The notes below the pieces were generated by a model that saw only the letters and a list, made by a program, of their open reading frames with translations, was not told the origin of the DNA and searched no databases. From contig CAKZTM010000041.1 in assembly GCA_937920555.1 (NCBI GenBank), positions 1 to 64,000 on the forward strand: a stretch of 64,000 nt of DNA. Direction: 5' to 3'. Within the stretch, counting starts at the first letter, position 1; each line of letters starts with the position of its first letter. The DNA comes from an uncultured Paracoccaceae bacterium. GTDB taxonomy: Bacteria > Pseudomonadota > Alphaproteobacteria > Rhodobacterales > Rhodobacteraceae. Made by a program: the position numbers and the translations under genes. Shown in pieces: positions 18,184-37,465 of this stretch.

Positions 18184-18313
18184 CGTCCTGAGGATAGCGC
18201 GTGTGGGGTTTTTCTTTAACCTTGGTTAACCACAAACATGTCGAAATGGTGGCAGGCGCCACAAAATCCCCTGATTTTAAAGGTTAATCCACCGATTTTG
18301 GATGTCCGCAAAC

Positions 18314-18370
18314 TGTATGATTTGTGTATGACATGTGTATGACATCTGTATGACAAAATGTCGGATTTTG
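18314..18370. repeat. Array of four 11-bp TGTATGACNNN direct repeats
   Basis: Four tandem units (TGTATGATTTG, TGTATGACATG, TGTATGACATC, TGTATGACAAA) at 18314-18357, followed by ATGTCGGATTTTG. A second array with the same order of parts is at 36043. The array lies about 130-175 bp upstream of the minus-strand glycosyltransferase start, in a 251-bp gene-free gap. An 11-bp period puts all units on nearly the same face of the helix, as in iterons or multi-site regulator operators. Confidence 0.8.
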
Positions 18371-18434
18371 CAGGGTTAACGTGGCGTTCGGTGGTAAAAG
18401 GTTAATTTGCGTGAATATCGCGAACGCTGGCACC

Positions 18435-34501: not shown

Positions 34502-36028
34502 ATGACACATATTTTGCAAGAGCTGGAAACCAGACGCGCGGAGGCCCGTGCCGGAGGTGGTTCACGCCGGGTTGAGGCGCAACATGCCAAGGGCAAGTTA
34601 ACGGCACGCGAGCGCATCGAGCTGTTGCTGGATGAGGGGTCATTTGAGGAGTTTGACATGTTCGTGGCCCACCGCTGTGTGGACTTTGGCATGGAGACCC
34701 AGAAATACCCCGGCGACGGTGTGGTCACCGGATGGGGCACGGTGAACGGGCGGCAAATTTTTGTGTTCTCGCAGGATTTCACGGTTCTGGGCGGGTCGCT
34801 ATCGGAAACCCATGCGCAGAAAATCTGCAAAGTGATGGATATGGCCATGAAGGTCGGCGCGCCCATTGTCGGGCTGAATGACAGCGGGGGTGCGCGCATT
34901 CAGGAAGGCGTCGCCTCTTTGGCGGGCTATGCGGATGTGTTCCAGCGCAACGTTCTGGCATCGGGCGTGATCCCGCAAATCTCGGTGATTATGGGCCCGT
35001 GCGCGGGGGGGGCTGTGTACTCGCCGGCCATGACCGATTTCATCTTTATGGTGCGCGACAGCAGCTACATGTTTGTGACCGGGCCGGACGTGGTCAAGAC
35101 GGTCACCAACGAGGTGGTAACGTCCGAAGAATTGGGCGGGGCGAAAACCCACACGTCCAAATCTTCCGTGGCGGACGGCGCGTTTGAAAATGATGTCGAG
35201 GCGATGATGGAGGTTCGGCGGCTGATCGACTTTCTGCCCAAAGACAATCGCGAGGGGCCGCCCGTGCGCCCGTTTTTCGACGATCCAGGCCGCATTGAGG
35301 ACAGTCTGGACACGATCATCCCCAGCAACCCCAACCAGCCCTACGACATGAAAGAGCTGATCTTGAAGGTCGCTGATGAGCATGATTTTTACGAGATACA
35401 GGAAGATTATGCCAAGAATATTCTGACCGGTTTCATTCGCCTCGAAGGGTCAACTGTGGGTGTCGTGGCCAACCAGCCCATGGTGCTGGCCGGGTGTCTG
35501 GATATTGACAGTTCGCGCAAGGCGGCCCGGTTTGTGCGGTTTTGTGATGCGTTTGAAATTCCGATCCTCACGCTTGTGGATGTGCCGGGGTTCTTGCCGG
35601 GGACGTCTCAGGAATATGGCGGGGTGATCAAGCACGGCGCGAAGCTCTTGTTTGCCTACGGCGAGGCCACCGTGCCCAAGGTGACGGTGATCACCCGCAA
35701 GGCGTATGGGGGGGCTTACGATGTGATGTCCTCCAAGCATCTGCGCGGCGATTTCAACTATGCGTGGCCCACAGCGGAGATCGCGGTGATGGGCGCCAAA
35801 GGGGCCACGGAGATCATCCACCGGGGCAAATCACCTGAGGAAATAGAGACGCTCACGGCGGAATATGAGGCGCGTTTTGCCAATCCGTTTGTGGCCGCGG
35901 AGAAGGGGTTTATTGACGAAGTGATAACGCCCCGCTCGACGCGAAAGCGGGTTGCGCGTGCTTTTGCGAGTCTGCGCGGCAAAAAGCTGTCTAACCCATG
36001 GAAAAAACACGACAATATCCCGCTTTAG
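34502..36028 (+). CDS. pccB: Propionyl-CoA carboxylase beta subunit
   Basis: 508 residues, the normal PccB length. Start ATG at [20 protein letters not shown] after AAAGGAG; the ORF-track start 39 codons upstream falls inside the operator region. Carboxyltransferase motifs: [20 protein letters not shown] with oxyanion-loop residues, [43 protein letters not shown]. Forms a dodecamer with biotinylated PccA and makes (S)-methylmalonyl-CoA from propionyl-CoA. Acyl-CoA specificity is inferred from PccA, PccR and the mutase nearby. Confidence 0.95.
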
Positions 36029-36042
36029 GGGGAGTCACAAAC

Positions 36043-36140
36043 TGTATGACTTGTGTATGACTCTTGTATGACATTTTGTCGGACTTTTGGACCGGCGTTA
36101 AGCTTTCAGTAAGATTTCGTTAAGGCTTTGGTAAGGGTTG
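36043..36140. repeat. 11-bp phased repeat array: three TGTATGACNNN units, then four NKTAAGNNTTN-like units
   Basis: TGTATGACTTG, TGTATGACTCT, TGTATGACATT (36043-36075), then TTTGTCGGACTTTTGG as in the array at 18314, then GTTAAGCTTTC, AGTAAGATTTC, GTTAAGGCTTT, GGTAAGGGTTG (36097-36140), also at 11-bp period. It lies just after pccB, in a 333-bp gene-free gap. Possibly a multi-site DNA-binding element. Confidence 0.7.
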
Positions 36141-37133: not shown

Positions 37134-37349
37134 ATGCGACACGGACTTTATTTGGCGGCCCTTTTGGCGGTTGCCGCTTGCGGCGACACAGCGTTGGAGC
37201 AAGGTGCCATCGGTGCAGGCGCCGGTGCCGGTGCGGCCGTTCTTTTGGGCGGTGACGTGGCCACGGGTGCGGCAACTGGTGCTGCGGCCAATGTTATTTT
37301 CTGCCAGACCAATCCGGGCAAATGCGACGACGCAGGCACGCCACTTTAA
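37134..37349 (+). CDS. Small lipoprotein with glycine-zipper-like segment, second member
   Basis: 71 residues. Start ATG after TTTAGGAGAGCG; the ORF-track start lies 31 codons upstream in non-coding sequence. Lipobox LLAVAACG (Cys near 16) and a Gly/Ala core GAIGAGAGAGAAVLLGGDVATGAATGAAANVIF. Two cysteines in the tail (FCQTNPGKCDD). A neighbour with the same layout at 36819 suggests a tandem pair of unrelated primary sequence but similar design. Confidence 0.6.
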   Translation: MRHGLYLAALLAVAACGDTALEQGAIGAGAGAGAAVLLGGDVATGAATGAAANVIFCQTNPGKCDDAGTPL

Positions 37350-37465
37350 TCGGGGCCTTAATCGGGGCTTTGATCTGACATCTGGCCAGTCTGGCCATCA
37401 CACTATCAAAGGCGCTGCACATTTGTGTGGTGCCTTTTTGCGTTTGGGAAGAGGACGAACCGCAC

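Follow-up and report, generated by a model that had tools for sequence, protein, structure and literature searches.

The tandem array at positions 18314-18370 of the 64,000-nucleotide stretch analysed here (the window; positions 1 to 64,000 of contig CAKZTM010000041.1, assembly GCA_937920555.1, from an uncultured Paracoccaceae bacterium) is the centre of an element of ~140 bp that belongs to a family dispersed over the source genome. The copies share one architecture whose parts are locked in helical phase, lie at gene ends, have no conserved RNA structure and are patchily distributed among the genera of the Rhodobacteraceae. With a probability of about 0.5, the array belongs to a non-coding family of interspersed DNA repeats, each copy of which serves at gene ends as a scaffold for phased protein binding, and we infer that a protein binds it with one subunit per helical turn and has a role in chromosome structure or supercoiling at these gene ends. 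An earlier note on this DNA had described the array, pointed out that the same order of parts recurs 18 kb away and suggested a multi-protein binding site. Both array and recurrence are as described, but the note delimited only the middle of the element and, by implying two copies, missed a dispersed family of about 47.

A dispersed family with a common architecture

The source genome (3.19 Mb in 112 contigs, 83% complete) contains 47 arrays, the window included, in the 45 stretches examined for them. Exact pairs TGTATGACnnnTGTATGAC occur 69 times and the reversed pattern never, and when up to three mismatches are allowed, 136 pairs are found against 3 in the reversed control. R1, a sequence-only covariance model built from 44 source-genome copies, matches 50 copies there. 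The element runs from a GAATC..GTTAAC box through 2-5 units of 11 bp to a GTTAA-n5-CGYRCGGTG box, over ~90-140 bp in all; in the source-genome copies the 5' GTTAAC box, often preceded by GAATC, lies ~25 bp before the array, and (G)TCATCAA or GAGTCACAA stands immediately 5' of the array. Among 18 mutually diverged copies, identity is 91% at the units, a value somewhat inflated because unit matches also served as search criterion, 49% at the 3-nt spacers and 29-36% in the flanks, and the difference between units and flanks suggests continuing constraint. Fourteen close copies make up subfamily A, whose discrete block measures ~165 bp; identity is ~0.9 within it and 0.45-0.55 outside.

Other repeats accompany some of these copies. 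At L072, L074, L077 and L089 a palindromic dispersed repeat resembling repetitive extragenic palindromic (REP) sequences, CGCCGTCATGCCAAGGCTTGACCTTGGCATCCAGTCAGAGAGCCTTGCGA, adjoins subfamily A copies downstream, while at L059, L084, L069, L078, L085 and L097 mosaic repeats assembled from short modules, GGATATTTGGGGAACATTGAAAG and CCGGCGATGGGGCGTTTTGG among them, extend over several hundred bp 3' of the array. Many contigs break near the element, probably because of these mosaic repeats.

Both window copies are on the forward strand. Copy 1 extends over 18277..18417 as matched by R1 (82.1 bits, E 7.6e-25) and copy 2, whose 5' box is degenerate, over 36016..36139 (67.1 bits, E 3.7e-20), these E-values, like those of the second model below, being rough as the calibration was short. 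The array of copy 1 (18314..18357) consists of four 11-bp units of the form TGTATGAT/C plus 3 nt: TGTATGATTTG at 18314, which is TGTATGAT plus 3 nt and carries one change (C to T), and then TGTATGACATG at 18325, TGTATGACATC at 18336 and TGTATGACAAA at 18347, each with an exact TGTATGAC and the last followed by ATGTCGGATTTTG. Its 5' box core GTTAA (of GGTTAAT), aligned across copies, is at 18283..18287 and its 3' box GTTAACGTGGCGTTCGGTG at 18375..18393, the equivalent of GTTAACnnnnCGYRCGGTG in other copies and genera. In copy 2, three exact TGTATGAC units at 36043, 36054 and 36065, followed by ATTTTGTCGGACTTTTG, form an array at 36043..36072, and a second 11-bp-phased array, GTTAAGCTTTC-AGTAAGATTTC-GTTAAGGCTTT-GGTAAG, follows at 36097..36135 with TAAG at 36099, 36110, 36121 and 36132. 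The window holds six occurrences of TGTATGAC, all within the two arrays, against 0.8 expected, and none of 100 shuffles reached six. Tandem Repeats Finder reported period 11 at both places, with 3.8 copies and a score of 63 for the copy 1 array, and again at 36096-36124 in the second array of copy 2. Copy 1 lies between two leftward genes, for a glycosyltransferase-domain protein and an AstE/AspA-like enzyme, and copy 2 begins 15 bp past the stop codon of a carboxyltransferase gene. A short perfect 12-bp tandem, TTAATCGGGGCC, is also present at 37346-37368, near the junction of an uncharacterised open reading frame and a biotin carboxylase gene.

Helical phase and position at gene ends

A loose motif was used to detect the units. 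The last unit and the 3' box are 17-20, 28-31, 40-42 or 52 bp apart, so that 102 of 102 values fall in four adjacent classes modulo 11, and 5' box and first unit are mostly 14, 24-26, 36-38 or 47-48 bp apart, 74 of 78 values falling in three classes. The box-to-box totals, which are independent of which units are detected, are 87-89 bp in most copies of the genomes G000, G346 and G312, and 77, 87-89 or 99-100 bp in G300, showing that helical phase is kept in four genera while the unit sequence changes. This phase-locked spacing, together with the second 11-bp series of copy 2, is the strongest sign that proteins may occupy a single face of the helix. The multi-protein binding site suggested in the earlier note, still a predicted one, agrees with the data better now than before testing: the 11-bp steps extend into the flanking boxes, identity in diverged copies falls from 0.91 at the units to 0.49 at the spacers and 0.29-0.36 in the flanks, and RNA structure is not conserved.

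To assess placement, genes were called in six genomes by a home-made program based on codon usage, and the gaps holding the 136 elements found there were compared with the other gaps in the same stretches as background. Elements occupy 52 convergent, 68 co-directional and 16 divergent gaps, compared with 44, 221 and 99 of the 364 background gaps, an enrichment in convergent gaps (p 5e-10) and a depletion in divergent ones (p 2e-4). In the co-directional gaps, 31 elements are sense and 37 antisense. Taken together, the elements lie at gene ends without following the direction of transcription. The 67 matches listed for the G346 chromosome are spread evenly (largest gap 318 kb, mean 59 kb); with this even spread, a two-arc strand test at p 0.08 and weak concordance with GC skew, we rejected a site linked to the origin or terminus or to the replication strand.

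Gene-end placement would also suit a signal acting in RNA, such as a terminator, a stabiliser of the 3' untranslated region or a small RNA, but we regard this as very improbable: conserved base pairs are absent from the source-genome copies, no compensatory changes occur in G346, shuffled sequences fold as well in single-stranded form as either window copy does, antisense copies are as frequent as sense ones (37 and 31), and Rfam 15 gave no match reaching the gathering score. A derived form in G087 (L178) does fold, with a z of -5.0.

The placement bears also on an operator of an OmpR/PhoB-family response regulator, a Pho box or CenR site, in which case some 50 promoters would form the regulon. 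Read as its reverse complement, TGTCATACAnn, the unit resembles the Pho box, which also consists of 11-bp direct repeats. The CenR motif of R. sphaeroides is TGA-N8-TGA, found within 100 bp upstream of its genes (PMC9275681); the source-genome units match it, are direct repeats of 11 bp on one helix face, and are constrained; the array may be bound in a similar manner. However, the element is found at 3' ends and in convergent gaps rather than upstream of promoters, divergent gaps being depleted; copy 1 has no promoter-like site, the neighbouring genes have no common function, and the unit sequence is not kept across genera. A TGTCAT or TGA core at 11-bp spacing is present in the source genome and in G087 and G359 and absent from G346, G312 and G300, where units such as CGTCGGCAAAG and CGTCGGTATTA lack it although such regulators are conserved. 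We judge an operator improbable. A regulon was rejected, as the 66 proteins neighbouring source-genome copies gave 89 Pfam families, none of them in more than three proteins.

Distribution among genera

The earlier note had proposed a search of the whole family for three or more units. Among 40 relatives the exact three-unit pattern was absent, but R1, applied to one genome per genus, found the element in 28 of 397 genera, the source genome included, with 28-45 copies each in G087, G346 and G359. The units of G346 differ within the same architecture (CGAATCGG-GGTTAACGCCTTATTTTG...GTCGGCAAAG-CGTCGGCAAAG-TGTCGGCCTTG-CGTATGGCACC-TCGTATGGCA...GGTTAACAGACCGCGCGGTGG), and those of G300 are CGTCGGTATTA/CGTCGGTAAAA. 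R2, a model built from G346 copies only, detected 106 copies in G346, 114 in G300 and 82 in G312, and its sole match in the window is copy 1, at 18271-18401 (E 7.6e-7). The 3' box alone occurs in 57 of 397 genera and 55 times in G346, against at most 3 per genome in the reversed control. The R1 matches, the R2 matches across genera and the counts of the 3' box indicate one element family with a patchy distribution.

G087 and G359 keep CGTATGAC/TGTATGAC arrays and have mostly lost the boxes, G087 often with an added inverted unit. In the G087 variant (L166-L184), three forward units are followed by an inverted unit (GCGKCATACACTTGTC), forming a strong hairpin that often stands directly after stop codons. 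At four G346 loci (L150, L152, L154, L159) the element is followed by a longer shared repeat (GGTGCGTGAGATCACGCAGCCTACGTTTGCTGGAAGATGTTTGGGTGCGGCTATTGAG). Dispersed intergenic YGTATGAC/TGAATGAC arrays with 11-bp, sometimes 10-bp, spacing were also seen in metagenome-assembled genomes (MAGs) of Bacteroidota and in Flavobacterium aquatile (L027-L055). The ten genomes concerned, selected because they match, have 7-65 exact pairs each against 0 in the reversed control, some with inverted units nearby. We treat this link as a curiosity, since such arrays were found in none of 294 other Bacteroidia genomes.

Head-to-tail repeats could arise neutrally, as a minisatellite growing by replication slippage, and a few of the Bacteroidota MAGs do have long arrays of the same unit. 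This is the least probable of the explanations considered, and is already contradicted by the conserved boxes: a simple minisatellite has no conserved flanks and a variable unit number, whereas the same boxes flank differing units in many genera, the unit number is nearly constant (2-5) and the element is dispersed over about 50-110 sites.

Mobile DNA, known repeats and a proposed phased scaffold

The main rival is a selfish non-autonomous mobile element, similar to a miniature inverted-repeat transposable element (MITE), whose array binds a transposase acting in trans and whose position at gene ends reflects purifying selection only. High copy number, homogenisation within genomes, patchiness across genera, the discrete block of subfamily A, inverted array copies in one related genome and positions not common to different genera (few orthologous neighbours, near chance) all agree with it. 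Against it, copies that have otherwise diverged keep their units at 91% and their flanks at 29-36%. Three copies were examined for terminal inverted repeats, and none was found in window copy 1, which has one weak 12-nt inverted pair only, or in L077, which has no pair; the inverted pair in L148 comes from a box that is nearly palindromic and at the same time a direct repeat. Transposases of the Y1/RAYT (REP-associated tyrosine transposase) families, the only ones searched for, are absent from 11 of 11 carrier genomes examined, and RAYT mobilisation was rejected on this ground. On balance we judge a selfish element somewhat unlikely. Three array patterns had no match in IMG/VR, so that a phage origin was rejected, and a plasmid collection searched with the G346 element gave no match.

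The statement in the earlier note that no described element has this sequence holds within Rfam and open-access papers, in which we found no known repeat family that accounts for it. The closest systems are REP sequences and bacterial interspersed mosaic elements (BIMEs) of enterobacteria and Pseudomonas, in which REPs bind gyrase, IHF and Pol I (PMC1525189, PMC2817692). The present element shares with them numerous intergenic copies and a preference for convergent gaps, but REPs are palindromic and often linked to RAYTs, whereas this element has no conserved palindrome and its carriers no Y1 transposases. The BrickBuilt MITE of Porphyromonas gingivalis, with 23-bp units, inverted-repeat ends and 19 copies in one species (PMC4596501), is likewise interspersed between genes and likewise has a head-to-tail array enclosed by flanking segments; here the units are of 11 bp, no inverted ends were found, many genera are involved and helical phase is kept. 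Direct repeats of TAACTGA, a 7-bp unit, are known from Beggiatoaceae, cyanobacteria and Bacteroidetes, and in Cand. Maribeggiatoa most of them immediately precede a start codon (PMC4679880). These too are short, form many intergenic sets without assigned function and are patchy over distant phyla, and thus give a precedent for such a spread, but the present element has 11-bp units, conserved boxes and a place at gene ends. The best reading of the sequences is an element probably akin to REP/BIME in placement and to BrickBuilt in build and a member of neither, as it lacks palindromes, RAYTs and inverted ends.

In the phased scaffold that we prefer, a DNA-binding protein would line up its subunits head to tail along a single face of the DNA, each taking one helical turn of 11 bp, and the two flanking GTTAAC boxes would hold a second contact, making each copy a nucleoprotein scaffold of ~90-140 bp. 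As with BIME/REP in enterobacteria, copies are found where transcription units end and keep away from divergent promoters. New copies would be made from existing ones within each genome, and in each lineage the sequence of the units would drift together while helical phase is kept. Several observations weigh against this reading. Part of the quantised unit-to-box spacing comes from degenerate units missed by the unit finder; copies within a genome are related by descent, so the phase and placement counts are not independent events; selection against insertion into promoters can leave elements at gene ends without any function; and because positions differ between genera, no individual site looks essential.

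Interspersed intergenic repeats are already known, and in the open-access literature the phase-locked form appears to be new. More tentatively, the family may represent a kind of chromosomal site, so far undescribed, that conserves helical phase more than sequence, with two GTTAAC boxes 7, 8 or 9 turns apart and a head-to-tail array between them. The array would be occupied by a protein that oligomerises, co-evolves with the units and organises the DNA where transcription units end, and some Bacteroidota may have acquired the same unit independently. If the element is a protein site, about 50-110 gene-end positions per genome would be marked by a seemingly undescribed system, in a family with genetically tractable members. 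The phase-lock gives a clear prediction, for insertions of 5 bp as against 11 bp, by which a structural nucleoprotein site could be told apart from selfish DNA, and the drifting units would provide a natural series in which to follow how a DNA-binding protein and its site evolve together.
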